A stretch of 47,427 bases of DNA from an uncultured Bacteroidales bacterium (lineage in GTDB: Bacteria; Bacteroidota; Bacteroidia; Bacteroidales; FEN-979): NCBI GenBank assembly GCA_903885595.1, contig CAISJJ010000101.1, positions 1-47,427 of the forward strand. The letters run 5' to 3'. The notes under the pieces were generated by a model. It was not told the DNA's origin and ran no database searches. It saw only the letters and a program-made list of their open reading frames with translations. Each line of letters opens with the position of its first letter. The stretch's first letter is position 1. The translations under genes and the position numbers were made by a program. Positions 1-7,397 of the stretch are shown here, one piece after another.

Positions 1-357
1 CTATCCGTGATTTTTATTCTTTCGTCATGTAACAAGGATCTCATTGTTCCCGATCCTCCTTCACCTCCACCTCCCCCTCCTGTACCGGGGCAAATCAGTT
101 ACGCACTTGAAATCCAGCCTGTCTTTACTGCAGAATGTGTCAGATGTCATGGCGAAGGACAGGTCGCCCCGATTCTAACCGAGGGTAAATCCTATGTTTC
201 ATTGAAGAATATGCCCGACATGATTATTGTCAGCGCCCCGGCAAACAGCATCCTGTACAGGAAAATGGCTACCGGTGGGAGTATGGCCACCTATTGTACG
301 CAAGCTAATGCTGATTCGGTGTTCAAGTGGATCAGCCAGGGAGCTAAAAACAATTAA
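1..357 (+). CDS. Monoheme c-type cytochrome lipoprotein, 5' end cut by the window
   Basis: The reading frame is open to the first base, so the true start probably lies upstream; the GTG at 7 falls inside what looks like a lipoprotein signal peptide. A lipobox (L-S-S-C) is followed by a proline-rich tether (PDPPSPPPPPPVPG) and one CxxCH heme site (CVRCHG). A methionine in the later KMATGGSM stretch could be the distal heme ligand. This layout suggests a membrane-tethered electron carrier facing the periplasm or cell surface. It lies 44 bases upstream of a DUF5777 beta-barrel gene and may share its electron-transfer role. The heme site is seen directly; the cellular location is inferred. Confidence 0.75.
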   Translation, partial: LSVIFILSSCNKDLIVPDPPSPPPPPPVPGQISYALEIQPVFTAECVRCHGEGQVAPILTEGKSYVSLKNMPDMIIVSAPANSILYRKMATGGSMATYCTQANADSVFKWISQGAKNN

Positions 358-401
358 TGAGTTATTCACACTAACAATCAATAGAAATGCATACATATAC
401 T

Positions 402-1469
402 ATGGGTAAAATGAGACGATTCTTCTTAAGCTTCATCTTTGTTATGAGCAGTTTTGGCGCACTTGTCGCCCAGGATTCGATCCAGGAACCACCAGCACAA
501 AAGCCTTTGGAAAAAGCAGCATTTGAAAGCGGCTATTTCATTGCGGATCAGACCGTATCATTGGCCCCGGCAAGAACGCTTGAAGCTGTAATACAGCATG
601 ATTTCGGCACGATACAAGAGCACTGGTCAGACCTTTATGGAATTTGGGGTGCCTCCAACATTCGTATCGGGTTGAATTATACCATTACTAAAGACCTTCA
701 GGTTGGCTTTGGAACGACAAAACTTAAAATGCTGCAGGATTTTAATATTAAATATGTCATTGCACGCCAGCGGAAGGGTGGCTTTCCTTTAACCATCACC
801 TTTTTTGGCAATGTGGCGCTCAATGCAAGCAACAAGAAATTCCTGGGGAATAACAAATTATCTTCCGACCTCGATTTCAATTCGCTTGTGTATGATACCG
901 CATTCCAAAGAAGTATAGCCAATCAGGTCATTCAAAATGACACAAATTACGGATTGGATTATATTACCTATAATCAGGCCAGTGTACTGAATGGCGCCAA
1001 TGAATCAGACCTTGGTTCCCTGTTTGATCAAACCTTTAAGGCTTCATACAGGTTTTCCTATTTTGCCGAATTTATGTTCGCACGCAGGTTCTGCAAAGAA
1101 TTTTCAGCACAATTAGGGATTTCGTGGATACATTACAACCTGGTTGATTCTGATGAGATGACCGCTAACCATGTAAATGGAATGCCTAATGACAACATCA
1201 ATATTTCCGGGATCGGTAAAATCAAAATAAGCCCGCAAACCTCCATTATGCTGAGTTATTCTCAGTCTGTTTTTACATACGTAAACACTGCTCCCTGGCC
1301 AAACATGGGTGTAGGTGTGGAAATATCGACCAGTACGCATGCTTTCCAGATTTTTCTGACAGCTGCCAATGGTCTTGTTCCGCAGGAGACGGCGATGTAT
1401 AATCGTAACAATCCGTACAATGGCGCCATTCTTCTTGGATTTAATATAACCCGGTTGTGGACATTCTGA
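402..1469 (+). CDS. DUF5777-type outer-membrane beta-barrel protein
   Basis: The protein has an N-terminal signal peptide ending near ALVAQ, then about 330 residues of alternating polar and aromatic strands, and ends in an aromatic residue (LWTF), as outer-membrane barrels do. The opening (SGYFIADQTVSLAP, then a region with HDFGTI and GIWGASNIRIG) matches what I recall of the DUF5777 family of Bacteroidota. The family has no established function. Possible ATGs lie at 387, 402 and 411; 402 or 411 puts the charged region directly before the hydrophobic core. Heme proteins on both sides suggest a role in moving electrons or a redox substrate across the outer membrane, which is inference. Confidence 0.75.
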   Translation: MGKMRRFFLSFIFVMSSFGALVAQDSIQEPPAQKPLEKAAFESGYFIADQTVSLAPARTLEAVIQHDFGTIQEHWSDLYGIWGASNIRIGLNYTITKDLQVGFGTTKLKMLQDFNIKYVIARQRKGGFPLTITFFGNVALNASNKKFLGNNKLSSDLDFNSLVYDTAFQRSIANQVIQNDTNYGLDYITYNQASVLNGANESDLGSLFDQTFKASYRFSYFAEFMFARRFCKEFSAQLGISWIHYNLVDSDEMTANHVNGMPNDNINISGIGKIKISPQTSIMLSYSQSVFTYVNTAPWPNMGVGVEISTSTHAFQIFLTAANGLVPQETAMYNRNNPYNGAILLGFNITRLWTF

Positions 1470-1513
1470 TTCACCTCCATTTAAATATGTTTAACAAATA
1501 AAAAACAAAAATT

Positions 1514-1930
1514 ATGAAAACATCACAAAAAATTGCAACAATTATGGCAGCTGCATTCCTTGCTGTATTTTTTATGTTCAGTACAGCGGTTCAAGCTCAA
1601 CAGGCAAAAGCCAAAGCATGGCCGGTCCCTGATAAGGACAAGGCAATGAAAGCACCTGCAAAAGCTGATGTTGCAACAGGAAAAGAACTCTGGGCAAAGC
1701 ATTGCAAATCATGTCACGGCAGCAAAGGTCTCGGTGATGGCCCAAAGAGCGCATCGTTAAAGACTTTTGCAGGGGATTTCTCTTCGGCAGCATTCCAGGC
1801 AGGAACTGATGGTGAGATTTTCTACCGCACCAACAAGGGCCGTGACGAAATGCCTGCATACGAAAAGAAAATTCCCGATGCAAACGATCGCTGGGCATTG
1901 GTTGCATTCATGCGCACAATGAAAAAGTAA
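1514..1930 (+). CDS. Periplasmic monoheme cytochrome c
   Basis: A clear Sec signal peptide (about residues 1-28, ending VQAQ) is followed by a lysine- and alanine-rich linker and a class I cytochrome c domain. The heme site is CKSCHG near residue 63, with GLGDGP just after it and a methionine in the DEMPAYE segment as the probable sixth ligand. At 138 residues it is the usual size of a soluble single-domain cytochrome c. It lies 44 bases after the DUF5777 gene and just before a terminator, so it closes the first transcription unit. It probably carries electrons between the inner-membrane complex encoded next and another partner. Confidence 0.88.
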   Translation: MKTSQKIATIMAAAFLAVFFMFSTAVQAQQAKAKAWPVPDKDKAMKAPAKADVATGKELWAKHCKSCHGSKGLGDGPKSASLKTFAGDFSSAAFQAGTDGEIFYRTNKGRDEMPAYEKKIPDANDRWALVAFMRTMKK

Positions 1931-1959
1931 ATGCATGATGTTTCATTCAAGATTCACGG

Positions 1960-2008
1960 AATGGGTGTCGACGGGTTTTCTCCGTTAACACCCATTTGTT
2001 TTTCTTTC
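1960..2008 (+). terminator. Rho-independent terminator after the monoheme cytochrome
   Basis: Arms AATGGGTGT (1960-1968) and ACACCCATT (1988-1996) pair, with further pairing inside, and a T-rich run follows. It separates the lipoprotein/barrel/cytochrome unit from the multiheme-cytochrome operon starting at 2040. Confidence 0.8.
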
Positions 2009-2039
2009 CCAACCCGATAAATTACCTACAATTATTACC

Positions 2040-3065
2040 ATGATTTATAAAGCAAATATCCGGCCCGCCTGGATCGTACTTTTGTTGATGTTGTTGTGCC
2101 TCCTCGCCTTCACCATGATTAAAACATCCGATACCTCTTCCCCGGTAAATATTAAAATTCAAACCGAACAGGAAACAACCTCCCGGGTTGATCATACGAA
2201 GTTCAAAAATGCCGCTGAAAATGAAAAATGTTTCAAATGCCACGGCCAGTCAAAATATACATATGAAAATCCGGAATCACAAAAAACAGTCACAAAGCGT
2301 ATGTTCTCAGAGCTGGTAATGGACCGTGATGTTTTCTATGTTTCAAACCACCGCGAATTTAAATGCACAGATTGCCATTCAGAAGATTATGAATCTTTCC
2401 CCCATGCCGGAAACCTTCGCATGGAGGCAATTGCAACTTGCATTGATTGCCATGGCGGAGATGAAAAATATGCCAAATTCGAGTTTGAAAAAATTGATAC
2501 TGCTTTTCTAGCCAGTGTGCATTCCGAAAAGCATAATGAAGATTTTACCTGCTGGATGTGTCATGATGCTCATACCTATAAAATAAATGCCCGCTCAAAT
2601 GAAAACCTGAAAGAAACGATTACCTATGATAACATGATCTGCCTGAATTGTCACGGGGATTTTAAAAACTATCAATTGCTTACCGATAAAGTCAAACCTA
2701 ATATCCTCAAAAAACATGAGTGGTTGCCCAACCAGGCATCACATTTTACCAATGTGCGCTGCATCGAATGCCATGCAAAAAATGAAGACACCCTTGTTGT
2801 TGCCCATCATGTGGTATCAAAAAAACAGGCAGTCAGGAAATGTGAGTCTTGCCATTCACAAAATTCCATTCTCTATGCTTCCCTGTATAAGTACCAGGTG
2901 AGTGAAAAGATTCAGAAAGAGGGGATTATTGTAGGTTTGCTTACGGGAGAATCTACCTCCATCGGCCCCGATAAAAGCAATACATTGAATATCATAAGTC
3001 TCGCCATTTTTGGATTAACAATCCTGGTCATAATTATACATGCGGTTCTTCGCATTAAAAAATAA
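2040..3065 (+). CDS. Membrane-anchored heptaheme cytochrome c
   Basis: Seven CxxCH heme sites begin at residues 64, 109, 134, 171, 201, 241 and 268. An N-terminal hydrophobic segment (about 11-27) and a C-terminal one (about 316-337) make it a periplasmic cytochrome held at both ends in the inner membrane. The spacing of the hemes, with several extra histidines between them, fits the NapC/NrfH-associated or Hmc/Tmc-type multiheme families, but I cannot assign a named family. It is the first gene of a tightly packed operon with cytochrome b, ferredoxin and NrfD-type subunits, and probably forms the periplasmic electron entry or exit of that complex. Confidence 0.88.
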   Translation: MIYKANIRPAWIVLLLMLLCLLAFTMIKTSDTSSPVNIKIQTEQETTSRVDHTKFKNAAENEKCFKCHGQSKYTYENPESQKTVTKRMFSELVMDRDVFYVSNHREFKCTDCHSEDYESFPHAGNLRMEAIATCIDCHGGDEKYAKFEFEKIDTAFLASVHSEKHNEDFTCWMCHDAHTYKINARSNENLKETITYDNMICLNCHGDFKNYQLLTDKVKPNILKKHEWLPNQASHFTNVRCIECHAKNEDTLVVAHHVVSKKQAVRKCESCHSQNSILYASLYKYQVSEKIQKEGIIVGLLTGESTSIGPDKSNTLNIISLAIFGLTILVIIIHAVLRIKK

Positions 3066-3074
3066 ATCGAACGT

Positions 3075-3698
3075 ATGAACCATCAAGCTGAAAAACTCTA
3101 TTTGTATCCTGTCTGGGTCAGGATCTGGCACATGACAAATGCCCTGCTCTGCCTTATTTTAATAATCACCGGTTTAAGCATCCAGTTTTCCAATCCCTCA
3201 ACAGTAGTTAAATTCAATGCCGCGGTAACAGTTCATAATTTAGCAGGAATTATTCTGACGATCAGCTATGGATTCTTTTTTCTTGGCAATCTTTTTACAC
3301 CCAATGGCTTACATTATGTCATATCAGTAAAAGGGTTTTTTCTGCGTCTGAAAAAACAGTTTCTTTATTACACGATAGGGATTTTCAGGAAGGAAACTGC
3401 ACCATTCCCCGTTGATGAGGATAACAAATTTAACCCACTCCAACAGGTTACCTATGTTGTATTAATGTATGGATTCGTTCCGTTTGTCATTGTTTCGGGC
3501 TGGGGTCTTCTTTATCCGGAAATGACACTTTACAGCGTTTTAGGAATCAGCGGACTTGATTTAACCGACCTGCTTCACATCACAGCAGGTTTTGGAATCA
3601 GTATAATTATGTGTGTTCATATTTACTTTTGTACGATTGGAAAAAATCCGACAAGCAATTTTAAAAGCATGATCAATGGTTATCATGAATCTCACTAA
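3075..3698 (+). CDS. Di-heme cytochrome b subunit (cytochrome b561 / Ni-Fe hydrogenase b-type)
   Basis: This 207-residue protein has about four membrane helices. Histidines at 19 (in WVRIWHMTNA), 54 (TVHNLAG), 168 (LLHITAG) and 182 (CVHIYF) sit in helices as expected for two b hemes in the formate dehydrogenase gamma / hydrogenase cytochrome b family. It starts 9 bases after the heptaheme cytochrome and ends 6 bases before the ferredoxin gene. In this family the protein passes electrons between membrane quinone and a periplasmic partner, here most likely the heptaheme cytochrome. The partner is inferred from gene order. Confidence 0.85.
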   Translation: MNHQAEKLYLYPVWVRIWHMTNALLCLILIITGLSIQFSNPSTVVKFNAAVTVHNLAGIILTISYGFFFLGNLFTPNGLHYVISVKGFFLRLKKQFLYYTIGIFRKETAPFPVDEDNKFNPLQQVTYVVLMYGFVPFVIVSGWGLLYPEMTLYSVLGISGLDLTDLLHITAGFGISIIMCVHIYFCTIGKNPTSNFKSMINGYHESH

Positions 3699-3704
3699 AT
3701 ATTA

Positions 3705-4673
3705 ATGAACGTGGAAGAAGAATTAAATAAAGATCCGAAAAACTCACGCCGGCAATTCCTGAAAAAAGGACTGATTGCAGGAGCTGGTGTTGCCGCTGGT
3801 GGTGGTCTGATTGCAGCATTTGTTGACGCAACGGCCACAGAAACCGGAGAAAAGGTAAAAGTTCTTACAACCGATGGCGAAATCATGGAGGTCGACAGGG
3901 GCTTACTCAAGCTGCCCCGTGTTTCAACCGAAGAGTCCCACAAAGGCATTCCGGGCCGCAAATTTGTGATGGTAATTGACCTTGGCAAATGTAAAAATGC
4001 AAGGAAATGCGTGGAAGCATGCCAGAAAGGTCATCACCTTCCAAAAAGCCAGGAGTTTTTAAAGGTATATCTTTTACAGGACTCTGAGAAAACCTCTCCT
4101 TACTGGTTTCCAAAACCATGCTTTCATTGCGATAACCCACTCTGCGTGAGTGTTTGCCCGGTGGGAGCCACTTATAAACGCACCGACGGCATTGTACTGA
4201 TCGATAACGAACGCTGCATTGGCTGCAAATTTTGCATGACCGGTTGCCCCTATTCAACCCGTGTTTTTGCCTGGAAGCATTATCCTGAATTCGATGAAGA
4301 TAAAGAGCCCTATTCCCCTGAGGCAAGCAGCCCCGGCAAGGAAGGGACCGTTTCTAAATGTGATTTTTGCCCCGACCTTATCCGGGTTGGTAAAATTCCC
4401 TATTGCGCCTCAGCCTGCCCGATGGGAGTGATCTATTTTGGCGATGTGGATGAAGACACGGTTACGAATGGAACCGAAACCTTCCAGTTCAGCAAGCTGA
4501 TCAGCGACCGCGCCGGATACCGGTATCTTGAAACACTTGGTACCCGCCCATGCGTTTATTATCTGCCTCCTGTTGAGCGTCAGTTTGAAGTTGAACGGGG
4601 TTTTGCCGATATGGACCAGGAAATTATTGATCGTTATAAGGATACACCATACAGTAAAAAAAATAAACCGTAA
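3705..4673 (+). CDS. Tat-exported four-cluster ferredoxin subunit (DmsB/HybA/PsrB-like)
   Basis: The N-terminus carries a twin-arginine motif (SRRQFLKK) followed by a glycine/alanine-rich hydrophobic stretch, so the protein is probably exported folded. Four cysteine groups for [4Fe-4S] clusters follow: CKNARKCVEAC, CFHCDNPLCVSVC, CIGCKFCMTGC, and CDFC with a later CASAC. This is the standard electron-wire subunit found with NrfD-type membrane proteins. It overlaps neither neighbour, with gaps of 6 and 2 bases. No molybdopterin or other catalytic subunit is encoded nearby, so the electron donor or acceptor on the periplasmic side is unknown; the heptaheme cytochrome is the obvious candidate. 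Confidence 0.9.
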   Translation: MNVEEELNKDPKNSRRQFLKKGLIAGAGVAAGGGLIAAFVDATATETGEKVKVLTTDGEIMEVDRGLLKLPRVSTEESHKGIPGRKFVMVIDLGKCKNARKCVEACQKGHHLPKSQEFLKVYLLQDSEKTSPYWFPKPCFHCDNPLCVSVCPVGATYKRTDGIVLIDNERCIGCKFCMTGCPYSTRVFAWKHYPEFDEDKEPYSPEASSPGKEGTVSKCDFCPDLIRVGKIPYCASACPMGVIYFGDVDEDTVTNGTETFQFSKLISDRAGYRYLETLGTRPCVYYLPPVERQFEVERGFADMDQEIIDRYKDTPYSKKNKP

Positions 4674-4675
4674 CC

Positions 4676-5989
4676 ATGGAACTACTTCGAAAAGACCCAT
4701 TGAGAGAATTTGCTCCGCAACTCGAGCGGACATCTATACAGGGATATCTGTGGATTGTTTTCTTGCTAGCCGTAATCGGTTTGGGAATTTATGCCTTTTT
4801 TTCACAGGTGTTTTATGGTCACGAAGTTACAGGCATGCGTGACAATGTGGTTTGGGGCGTTTATATCGTCAATTTTATCTTTTTTATGGGGATCAGCTAT
4901 GCCGGGGCGCTCATTTCGGGAACCCTGCATCTTTTTAAAACAGCATGGCGAAAACCGATCATCCGCATGGCCGAATTCATCACCATAATCGCGCTGCTTA
5001 TCGGACCATGTTTTATCCTGCTCTGCATCGGCCGGCTCGATAAACTCCATTATCTCGTCATTTTCGGAAGAATCCAGTCGCCCATCACCTGGGACGTAAT
5101 CGCCATCTCAACCGATATTTTCGGGTGCTTTATCTTCCTTTATCTCTCCGTTTTACGCGACCTGGCCAAACTCAGGGATTATGAACTACTTCAGCTGCCA
5201 AACTGGAGAAAGAAACTCTACAAGTTACTCGCTCTCGGTTATACCGGTACTCCTGAACAAAAGCAGCGCCTGAACAGGGCCTCGGACATCATGGCCGCCA
5301 TGGTCATTGCCATTGCAATCATCGTGTATTCTGTTTTGGCCTGGATTTTCAGCGTTACCCTGCAACCCGGCTGGCACAGTACCATTTTTGGTCCCTACTT
5401 CGTTATTGCAGCCGTGTATTCCGGAAGTGCCGTGTTGATATTATGTATGTGGATTTTCAGAAGGATATACCATCTCGAAGAATATATAACCAAAAAACAC
5501 TTTGTGGCAGTTGGGGTTATCATGCTTGTTCTGGCAGCTTTTTTCGGCTACTTTACCTTCAGTGATTACCTCACCAAGTGGTATGGTTCCGAAAAAAATG
5601 ATGAAATGCTGATCCAGTTGCTTTTCAAGGAGTTTTACTGGCCCTTTATTATTTCAAACTATATTGGCGTGCTCCTGCCTCTTATCGTTGTTGGAATTGC
5701 CAAGTTCAGAACAATAACCAATATCACGATTACTGCTATTGTCGTTATCATCGCGCTTTGGCTCAACCGGTATATCATTGTTGTACCAACACTTGAATCT
5801 CCTTATTTGCCTATCCAGGATTCACGACCCGAATGGCTGAACTACACAGCGACCTGGGTTGAATGGAGCCTCACAGCCGCAGGGGTTGCAGTTTTCGCAC
5901 TGCTGTTCACCTTGGCATCCAAGTTCATTACCATCGTCCCGGTTTCGGGCTTACATGGAGAAGAACATAATGAAGAAGCCATTGTTTAA
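4676..5989 (+). CDS. nrfD: NrfD/PsrC-type quinone-interacting membrane subunit
   Basis: This 437-residue protein has about ten hydrophobic helices. The early segment WGVYIVNFIFFMGISYAG is characteristic of the NrfD/PsrC/HybB family, which oxidises or reduces membrane quinone and hands electrons to a ferredoxin partner. It starts 2 bases after the ferredoxin gene, which suggests translational coupling. The helical hairpin and long loop around residues 160-210 resemble the larger NrfD members of Qrc and alternative complex III rather than the short NrfD of nitrite reductase. The gene symbol marks the family, not a proven role in nitrite reduction. Confidence 0.88.
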   Translation: MELLRKDPLREFAPQLERTSIQGYLWIVFLLAVIGLGIYAFFSQVFYGHEVTGMRDNVVWGVYIVNFIFFMGISYAGALISGTLHLFKTAWRKPIIRMAEFITIIALLIGPCFILLCIGRLDKLHYLVIFGRIQSPITWDVIAISTDIFGCFIFLYLSVLRDLAKLRDYELLQLPNWRKKLYKLLALGYTGTPEQKQRLNRASDIMAAMVIAIAIIVYSVLAWIFSVTLQPGWHSTIFGPYFVIAAVYSGSAVLILCMWIFRRIYHLEEYITKKHFVAVGVIMLVLAAFFGYFTFSDYLTKWYGSEKNDEMLIQLLFKEFYWPFIISNYIGVLLPLIVVGIAKFRTITNITITAIVVIIALWLNRYIIVVPTLESPYLPIQDSRPEWLNYTATWVEWSLTAAGVAVFALLFTLASKFITIVPVSGLHGEEHNEEAIV

Positions 5990-6019
5990 TTATTCACCGG
6001 AATCACTCAATTTGTCCTT

Positions 6020-6910
6020 ATGAAAAGAGTTTTTGCAGTATCATTAATCATTGTTTCCATCTTTTTTAGGCCAACATTCACACGGGCCGGGGAACAAACA
6101 GATTCCACAAACATACCCGTTGAATCACGTATGGCGCTCAACTACCTCTGCACTACCGATTCTATAATATTGACTGCAACCCTGAGTATCAGAAAGGGTG
6201 ATTTCACCCTCGGACTGGAAAATGCCCCGGTTGAGTTAACAGCATCCAATGGAACAACCATTAACCAGTTAGGTAAAGCAAAAACCGACCAGGAGGGTAA
6301 TGCTGTTTTCAAAGTTCCTGCTGCAGGATTACCCTCTGATAAGGATGGGCTGGTATCTTACCTGGCAAAGTTTACCGGTACTGACAAATATCCTGAAGCC
6401 GAGGCCTCATTTATTGCTAAACCTGCTAAAATAAAGCTTTCCTTCAATATTGAGGACTCAATGAGGATCATGAAAGTGACGGCAATCCAGAAAAACGAGA
6501 AAGGGGAAGAGATTCCAATCGCCAAGGAAACCGTGCACATTTATGTCCCACGGCTATTTAGTTTATTGAAAATCGGAGAAATTTCCCTGGAAGAAGATGG
6601 AACCGGAACCCTGGAATTTCCAAAGGAAATAGTGGGAGATACCCTTGGAAACCTTGTCGTGATTGCTAAAATCGAAGAACATGATCAATTTGGTTTTATA
6701 GAGGGCCGGAATACGATCAACTGGGGAGTTCCCAAGCAATATTATAAGGCGGAGGTGCCCTCCCGTGAATTATGGACGCCGATCGCCCCACTGTGGATGA
6801 TTATCACCCTGCTGGTTATGTTGGCCGGTGTGTGGGCCCATTATGTGTATGCCGTGTATGAACTCGTCATGATCAAACGTCTGAGCAAAAAAGATAAGCC
6901 CATTTTATAA
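6020..6910 (+). CDS. Membrane-anchored Ig-like accessory protein of the redox operon
   Basis: I do not recognise a named family. An N-terminal signal peptide (about 1-23) is followed by two beta-rich segments that look like Ig or bacterial-surface folds (around residues 35-130 and 135-230, with patterns such as VELTASNGTTINQLG), then one transmembrane helix near residues 260-282 and a basic tail. The protein would sit mostly in the periplasm. It follows the NrfD gene by 30 bases and is the last member of the operon, so it may be a structural or assembly part of the complex. No heme or cluster motif is present. Confidence 0.65.
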   Translation: MKRVFAVSLIIVSIFFRPTFTRAGEQTDSTNIPVESRMALNYLCTTDSIILTATLSIRKGDFTLGLENAPVELTASNGTTINQLGKAKTDQEGNAVFKVPAAGLPSDKDGLVSYLAKFTGTDKYPEAEASFIAKPAKIKLSFNIEDSMRIMKVTAIQKNEKGEEIPIAKETVHIYVPRLFSLLKIGEISLEEDGTGTLEFPKEIVGDTLGNLVVIAKIEEHDQFGFIEGRNTINWGVPKQYYKAEVPSRELWTPIAPLWMIITLLVMLAGVWAHYVYAVYELVMIKRLSKKDKPIL

Positions 6911-6944: not shown

Positions 6945-7397
6945 ATGAGCCTCCCGTTTAATTCACCTCAGGTACTTGAAGCTTTATCCAGGGGAATGAT
7001 CCTTGAAGCCAATGAATTGATGGGAGGTCCCTATTCGATCAGTGCTTCTGTTATACACGGAAATCACCTTGGCCGGCAGCTTGGATTTCCAACTGCTAAT
7101 CTTGAATTACCGGAAAAAAAACCTTTATTGTTGGCTCATGGTGTATATGCCGTAAAGATCGAATTTGACCAGGCATGGTACAAAGGAATGGCCAATGTTG
7201 GAATTCGTCCTACTGTCGACGGAAAAAATCTGACCATTGAGATTAACTTGTTCGATTTTTCAGGAGATCTATATGGAAAAAAACTTATGGTCCATTTTAT
7301 TGGCCGAATCCGGAATGAGAAAAAATTCAATAATCTTGATGCATTGGTTGATCAACTTCACCTGGACAAACAACAGGCCTTAAATTTACTTTTGTGA
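6945..7397 (+). CDS. Stand-alone riboflavin kinase domain (RibF C-terminal half)
   Basis: The protein converts riboflavin to FMN, judging from the riboflavin kinase signature: VIHGNHLGRQLGFPTAN near residues 37-53, the catalytic-region segment IEINLFDFSGDLYG, and a typical C-terminal end. The first about 30 residues (SPQVLEALSRGMILEANELMGG) match the linker that joins the FAD synthetase and kinase domains of bifunctional RibF, which is about 310 residues. An in-frame stop at 6930-6932 shows the N-terminal domain is absent here. It may be a truncated paralogue that kept its kinase residues. It overlaps the convergent GldH-like gene by 12 bases. Confidence 0.85.
   Translation: MSLPFNSPQVLEALSRGMILEANELMGGPYSISASVIHGNHLGRQLGFPTANLELPEKKPLLLAHGVYAVKIEFDQAWYKGMANVGIRPTVDGKNLTIEINLFDFSGDLYGKKLMVHFIGRIRNEKKFNNLDALVDQLHLDKQQALNLLL

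Follow-up and report, generated by a model that had tools for sequence, protein, structure and literature searches.

A candidate extracellular electron transfer operon of uncultured Bacteroidales, with an OcwA-like hexaheme lipoprotein and an optional NrfD cassette

The operon and its continuation on a second contig

The stretch of DNA analysed here, hereafter the window, comprises 47,427 nucleotides from an uncultured Bacteroidales bacterium (GenBank assembly GCA_903885595.1, contig CAISJJ010000101.1). It is the whole of one contig (G000:C101) of a fragmented 6.0-Mb genome, which has 547 contigs and is 94.5% complete. Its first part holds eight genes on one strand that form part of a candidate system for extracellular electron transfer (EET): cytochromes of the b and c types, an outer-membrane barrel, an iron-sulfur (FeS) protein and an NrfD-type membrane subunit. 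These genes had been predicted from the sequence, and both the reading frames and the family matches agree with the prediction. The start of the contig falls inside the operon and cuts the gene of a monoheme lipoprotein. Window bases 1-141 are identical to the end of another contig, C517, which carries upstream the genes of a hexaheme lipoprotein, a Crp-type regulator and an aspartate-semialdehyde dehydrogenase. The join of the two contigs is supported by the same gene order in ten close relatives. Once joined, the monoheme lipoprotein has 130 amino acids (aa) from its likely Met, a lipobox LSSC and a heme motif CVRCH. The features are the following.

1..357, + strand: monoheme c-type lipoprotein, 5' end in C517 (LIC11213-like, 44 bits against a model cut-off of 100)
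387..1469, + strand: outer-membrane beta-barrel DUF5777 (PF19089; Pfam 209 bits, cut-off 23.1)
1514..1930, + strand: periplasmic monoheme cytochrome c, class I type (conserved Met, His/Met expected)
2040..3065, + strand: heptaheme c-type cytochrome (7 CXXCH)
3075..3698, + strand: four-helix cytochrome b (PF01292; nearest curated model thiosulfate reductase cytochrome b, 178 bits, cut-off 204)
3705..4673, + strand: ferredoxin-like FeS protein of the DsrO/TtrB/NrfC type, 322 aa (twin-arginine signal)
4676..5989, + strand: NrfD-type integral membrane subunit (109.5 bits, cut-off 25.8)
6020..6910, + strand: secreted domain protein, here called the Ig-helix protein (signal and one C-terminal helix)
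6945..7397, + strand: riboflavin kinase, the downstream operon boundary in close relatives and probably outside the system
L005:314-1681 (C517), - strand: hexaheme lipoprotein
L005:1936-2631 (C517), - strand: Crp-type regulator

The original prediction described a respiratory module with no catalytic subunit. This holds inside the window, where a family scan found no molybdopterin or hydrogenase catalytic domain among the operon proteins. It fails upstream, where there is a hexaheme lipoprotein, a member of the NrfA/OcwA superfamily; the subunit had seemed to be lacking because the contig ends there. The namesake system of NrfD, nrfABCD of Escherichia coli, likewise has a multiheme terminal enzyme and not a molybdenum one. 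A molybdopterin gene just upstream had been set as a test of the prediction, and none is present among the frames of C517, which were read by eye. The molybdopterin domain PF00384 was matched in 12/12 genomes and on none of their operon contigs (controls 11/14).

Conservation of the operon across relatives

The close relatives are ten same-genus or same-family loci. They were chosen from 28 genomes, out of 61 searched, in which the closest NrfD shares at least 65% identity with that of the window, so that the presence of NrfD in them is by construction. All ten keep one gene order: semialdehyde dehydrogenase, regulator, hexaheme lipoprotein, monoheme lipoprotein, DUF5777, cytochrome c, heptaheme, cytochrome b, FeS protein, NrfD, Ig-helix protein and riboflavin kinase. 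An ImcH-like gene precedes the riboflavin kinase in two of them, and a second hexaheme gene occurs in one. Across these relatives the barrel is 39-77% identical and the hexaheme 28-70%, against 74-91% for NrfD and 79-94% for the FeS protein. Higher variability of surface parts is a pattern reported previously (PMC6148476), and we count the match to it as a point for EET.

For a wider set, named genomes were searched with the heptaheme profile. This gave 106 relatives, and the best 80 were kept; the heptaheme, having served as the query, is present in all 80 by construction. Genes were labelled using profiles seeded with the window proteins. Counts of the core refer to the 52 of the 80 loci in which the heptaheme has no less than 5.5 kb of flank to either side; the other 28 were left out. 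The monoheme lipoprotein, DUF5777, the heptaheme and cytochrome b form one run in 52/52 of these, and the monoheme lipoprotein lies directly 5' of DUF5777 in all 52 (72/80 overall). The hexaheme lipoprotein, counted when it had at least five motifs and at least 300 aa, which leaves out small four-heme proteins, is in the same run in 37/52 loci and anywhere in the locus in 43/52. Conservation of the gene set, the other test that had been named, is thus borne out by the ten close loci and by the four-gene core.

NrfD behaves differently from the core. It is in the run in 27/52 loci and anywhere in the locus in 31/52, and five loci of the window's own clade lack the NrfD cassette, cytochrome b being followed directly by riboflavin kinase. 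Over a quick heptaheme tree, in which 17/78 inner branches are weakly supported, the cassette changes at least nine times. NrfD and the FeS protein are therefore an optional cassette, and not the core of the system: the pair is missing from the gene run in 25/52 loci.

The nearest named loci are from uncultured Bacteroidales with lake isolate labels (Loclat, Pavin, Alinen, Kiruna), and Prolixibacteraceae or Draconibacterium appear in the titles of single related records. The titles of the wider loci are of Bacteroidota type, with one exception, L080, titled Alphaproteobacteria; it is near-identical to the Bacteroidales locus L079, and its title is probably wrong. At E 1e-30 the heptaheme was found in 65/295 sampled genomes of the order, spread over 45/184 genera and 37 family codes.

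The hexaheme lipoprotein as candidate terminal cytochrome

The hexaheme lipoprotein has about 455 aa, five CXXCH motifs, one CX4CH motif and a collagen-like linker, and the host genome has one member of this family at E 1e-10. The Pfam MtrC/MtrF domain gives 25.3 bits with this protein, under the cut-off of 30, and 42.5 bits in one relative. We built a family profile from 56 sequences. Its best match in the PDB is 6i5b (E 3.4e-13), and the next ones are NrfA (6v0a, E 1.8e-12), octaheme nitrite reductases and the multiheme cytochrome 6qvm (E 3.2e-9). 6qvm is probably OmhA, though passages of PMC7829351 make no mention of 6QVM. The sequence thus places the hexaheme in the NrfA superfamily as a homologue of OcwA. 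OcwA (6I5B) is a cell-surface terminal reductase of Thermincola potens involved in EET; it has an NrfA-like build with nine hemes, two of them open, and comes from a Gram-positive cell (PMC6703420).

Hemes 3-6 of the hexaheme align with hemes 2-5 of E. coli NrfA. The six heme motifs are present in 57/57 members of the family, and six further His are conserved, five of them in 57/57 and one in 56/57, so that each of the six hemes could have two His. The catalytic residues of NrfA are CXXCK, Tyr216 and His264 (E. coli numbering), and where the hexaheme can be aligned it lacks these marks of a nitrite reductase of the NrfA type. The heme equivalent by order to the CXXCK heme, which lies outside the local alignment, has CXXCH; Arg occupies the position of Tyr216 in 55/57 hexahemes; and there is no conserved His opposite His264, in a stretch that is loosely aligned.

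These observations bear on a reading in which the hexaheme is the enzyme of an Nrf-like reductase for a small soluble acceptor (nitrite, hydroxylamine or sulfur oxyanion). Cytochrome b/heptaheme and FeS/NrfD would feed it as NrfBCD feed NrfA, and the barrel would admit the substrate. Such a role would fit the alignment with NrfA, the match to 6v0a and the presence of FeS and NrfD genes as in nrfABCD. Activity would even be compatible with the missing CXXCK, because OcwA, which is without it, still reduces nitrite slowly (PMC6703420). We nevertheless consider it unlikely, given the replaced catalytic residues, the spare His for all six hemes and the divergence of the hexaheme, just 28-30% identical in 4/10 close relatives. 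The capacity for two His per heme and the missing NrfA residues together favour an electron-transfer cytochrome over a nitrite reductase. The hexaheme lipoprotein is, from its sequence, the likely terminal cytochrome of the chain, and an open heme is possible.

In some relatives, a second hexaheme lipoprotein stands in tandem with the first, the two being about 29-31% identical (L064:4386-5750, L068:4410-5855 and L078:4770-6065), which suggests that terminal cytochromes are exchanged. A search for plasmid copies of the hexaheme of locus L060 gave no match.

Inner-membrane modules

The two putative quinol-oxidising modules differ in how firmly they are tied to the operon. The first, part of the core, consists of cytochrome b and the heptaheme. 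Four His are conserved in at least 95% of 77 cytochrome b sequences, and two b hemes are therefore expected. The heptaheme has, in addition to its seven CXXCH, seven further conserved His outside the helices, and the one of the window has one hydrophobic helix each at the N- and the C-terminus.

The second module is the cassette. In 42 sequences of its FeS protein, the twin-arginine signal and 15 Cys are invariant. By this signal the protein should face the periplasm, and the number of Cys is one too few for four full clusters. The first cluster motif, C-x5-C-x3-C, lacks one Cys and is conserved in the 42 sequences; a 3Fe-4S or an odd-ligand cluster is possible. The Ig-helix protein (6020..6910) has no family match at E 0.001, and its Ig-like character comes from a weak match in a paralogue. 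This paralogue belongs to another operon of the host genome (L007:8582-13114, on contig C179), made up of an FeS protein, an NrfD-Ig-helix fusion of 738 aa and a cytochrome c, and flanked by a DUF2339-like membrane protein and a divergent Crp-type gene. The fusion makes the Ig-helix protein a likely partner of NrfD, and the operon indicates that these two can make up a separate module with the FeS protein and cytochrome c. At L006:4827-5315 (contig C210) the small cytochrome c recurs with 63% identity, and no NrfD gene lies within the 20 kb read.

The second operon also lends weight to a different view of the window, in which a quinol:cytochrome c oxidoreductase resembling alternative complex III would reduce the small cytochrome c for an oxidase or reductase whose gene lies elsewhere, the outer-membrane genes being mere neighbours. 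In the C179 operon the FeS protein, the NrfD-Ig fusion and cytochrome c occur alone; cytochrome c accompanies 26/27 runs with NrfD and 7/25 of those without; and molybdopterin enzymes are encoded elsewhere in the genomes, in 12/12 of them. Yet with kinship taken into account, NrfD and cytochrome c show no significant association, and the lipoprotein, barrel, heptaheme and cytochrome b are united in 52/52 loci, with NrfD or without. We regard this view as improbable.

ImcH-like and CbcL-like companions

Inner-membrane quinol oxidases of Geobacter EET have counterparts by description beside the core. At least one of an ImcH-like and a CbcL-like protein is carried by 22/52 wider loci. The ImcH-like protein (about 500 aa) occurs in 20/52. 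We collected 27 full-length sequences, including the seed from L047, which lies outside the 80 loci, and dropped shorter pieces. Their lengths are 496-511 aa, and 26/27 show three helices and seven heme motifs, one of them CX3CH and the other six CXXCH. ImcH is described as having 495-519 aa, three N-terminal helices, one CX3CH and six CXXCH (PMC6295460), and the companion agrees with this account of motifs and helices, the two being compared by description only. Very large multiheme proteins occur in 13/52 loci: 12 have 19 hemes in about 930 aa and one is cut off at 14. The one that was scanned, in L100, has a C-terminal cytochrome b domain, and its make-up lies within the limits described for CbcL. 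The 19-heme protein of about 930 aa is found at L100:11650-14442, L126:11476-14274, L120:11586-14378 and in 15 more of the 80 loci, some of them cut; the host genome has none at E 1e-20, and 4/46 relatives have one.

ImcH and CbcL are inner-membrane quinol oxidases of Geobacter EET (PMC6295460), and their likenesses beside the core provide the strongest guilt by association for EET. They also bear on the direction of flow. Electrons could instead run inward to the quinone pool, with Fe(II) outside the cell, a mineral or a partner cell as the donor, and the comparison of CbcL/MtrH with MtoC leaves room for this, as it is reported to show no feature that separates quinol oxidation from quinone reduction (PMC6295460). 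ImcH, however, has been implicated only in quinol oxidation (PMC6295460), although this is a weak point against inward flow, which we hold to be very improbable.

We also asked whether NrfD and the CbcL/ImcH-like proteins are mutually exclusive modules. The raw table (23/4/7/18, Fisher p 5e-5) pointed that way, and 6 independent pairs show nothing; we rejected the idea.

The DUF5777 barrel and its monoheme partner

A crude alternation score gives the DUF5777 barrel roughly 13-15 strands, and sequence search found no relative of it in the PDB. The name DUF5777 was not found in the literature searched. The family is present in 115/296 sampled genomes of the phylum, and from these 115 genomes we read 29 phylum loci in addition to two of the host. 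A lipoprotein of the monoheme family lies within about 1.5 kb of DUF5777 in 25/31 loci. A YceI gene is present at 23/30, and 21 have both. These 23 genes had been selected before the scan, on length and visual inspection, among the 37 short frames of the 30 loci. The monoheme lipoprotein, YceI and DUF5777 stand together at L142:6210-9329 (C210) and in 20/29 phylum loci (L143-L171).

Such frequent pairing suggests that barrel and monoheme lipoprotein are general partners, which the window shows in one of several settings, that of a multiheme chain. The idea of an MtrB-like sheath becomes weaker for it, and a two-piece monoheme port is possible. As a tentative and rather doubtful extension, the pair may form such an outer-membrane electron port across Bacteroidota, with interchangeable partners: a YceI-type carrier or, for extracellular respiration in anaerobic Bacteroidales, the heptaheme/cytochrome b/hexaheme chain. 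Cyc2, a fused monoheme porin, is a functional parallel to a port in two pieces.

None of the frames in the 80 loci joins the monoheme lipoprotein and DUF5777 in one protein. The heme motif of the lipoprotein is reduced to CTCH (C-x-C-H) in L075, L076, L077, L081, L082 and L087, and it is CX3CH or CX4CH in other loci.

A model of extracellular electron transfer and the points against it

We propose that the operon encodes a Bacteroidales EET chain in which quinol is oxidised by a heptaheme/cytochrome b dehydrogenase and, optionally, by one of the NrfD type, and which ends in an OcwA-like surface cytochrome. We give this a probability of about 0.57. Genes, heme motifs, signals, conserved order and superfamily are seen in the sequence. 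In the model, the operon sits behind the gene of a Crp-type regulator. Menaquinol would be oxidised in the inner membrane by the diheme cytochrome b and the membrane-anchored heptaheme, in a layout like that of CbcBA. The accessory cassette of NrfD, FeS protein and Ig-helix protein would be a second menaquinol-oxidising module and pass its electrons to the small cytochrome c. The periplasm would be crossed via the heptaheme and cytochrome c, and the DUF5777 barrel with the monoheme lipoprotein would be the outer-membrane unit that receives the periplasmic electrons. These would exit from the hexaheme lipoprotein, held by its lipid anchor and collagen-like linker, towards minerals, humics or a partner cell as the final acceptor. 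We infer the direction of flow, the surface position of the hexaheme, the role of the barrel, the joint work of the two inner-membrane modules and the final acceptor.

The original prediction had drawn much of this path, from quinol through cytochrome b and NrfD, FeS clusters and seven hemes to a heme lipoprotein beside a barrel, and had offered EET in Bacteroidota as one reading. Sequence and genomic context back both, and overall the electron-path and EET reading comes out as partly supported.

Several results weigh against it. The hexaheme matches nitrite reductases (E 1.8e-12) almost as well as it does OcwA, and OmcS is matched only at E 0.0088. No hexaheme lipoprotein is within reach in 9/52 loci. 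The occurrence of DUF5777 and the monoheme lipoprotein beside YceI across the phylum means that the pair is not specific to EET, and the barrel, set against the size of MtrB, looks too small to serve, like MtrB, as the sheath of a multiheme cytochrome. With correction for kinship, the tendency of NrfD and the CbcL/ImcH-like proteins to avoid each other is not significant. Finally, the titles of all 80 wider loci mark them as metagenome genomes.

EET is well studied in Geobacter and Shewanella and little described in Bacteroidales. Members of the Bacteroidetes have been linked to it before (PMC8258643), and counts of homologues in this group give 5 for CbcL and 1 for ImcH (PMC6295460). Besides such counts, the literature searched turned up one uncharacterised anode cluster (PMC8258643). 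If the model is true, common anaerobes of lakes and sediments can export electrons from the cell. This would matter for iron cycling and syntrophy in these habitats, and the genes to test are named.

Comparison with known systems

Outer-membrane conduits are recognised in Geobacter by three elements: a periplasmic multiheme c-type cytochrome, an outer-membrane beta-sheet protein and an outer-membrane redox lipoprotein (PMC6148476). The operon appears to have two of the three, with the third in a membrane-anchored form. DUF5777 (209 bits) is the beta-sheet protein, and the monoheme and hexaheme lipoproteins, with their conserved lipobox Cys and predicted location, are the redox lipoproteins; the multiheme cytochrome is the heptaheme, which has a hydrophobic helix at each end. 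The operon shares with the MtrCAB, OmcB and Ext conduits a barrel and outer-membrane redox lipoproteins adjoining multiheme cytochromes. It differs from them in that DUF5777 is a small barrel of another family, that its lipoprotein partner is monoheme and that the operon has no soluble multiheme cytochrome.

By the tests listed here, the cluster does not qualify as MtrCAB, Dsr, Qrc, Nrf or alternative complex III. For MtrCAB, the barrel matched only DUF5777, and the MtrC domain stays at 25.3 bits against 30 in the host genome. For DsrMKJOP and Qrc, all scores are under the curated cut-offs (DsrO 168.4/200, DsrP 83/350, QrcC 118.7/400, QrcD 40.8/570 bits). NrfC (TIGR03149) reaches 109.9 bits against a cut-off of 377.6. 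Alternative complex III has a second NrfD subunit and a large molybdopterin-like FeS subunit, whereas the operon has one NrfD and one FeS protein of 322 aa only.

The likenesses are closer part by part. As in NrfABCD of E. coli, there are a multiheme terminal protein, a multiheme carrier, an FeS protein and NrfD; here, in contrast, the NrfA catalytic residues are not conserved where alignable, and cytochrome b, the barrel and lipid anchors are added. With CbcBA and CbcL of Geobacter the operon shares a multiheme c-type cytochrome and an inner-membrane diheme cytochrome b, here as a separate heptaheme and a four-helix cytochrome b, so that the likeness is one of layout alone. Geobacter CbcA presumably has seven hemes as well. 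CbcBA works near -0.2 V (PMC12307469). OcwA is shared as the NrfA-superfamily multiheme cytochrome that is the best solved relative of the hexaheme profile; against its nine hemes, two of them open, the present protein has six hemes, possibly none open, with a lipid anchor and a collagen-like linker. Lastly, an anode-enriched Bacteroidetes genome has a seven-gene cluster, with a beta-barrel and six multiheme cytochromes, proposed for EET (PMC8258643). Its genes were reported only as hypothetical ones, and the cluster may be of the same kind as that of the window.

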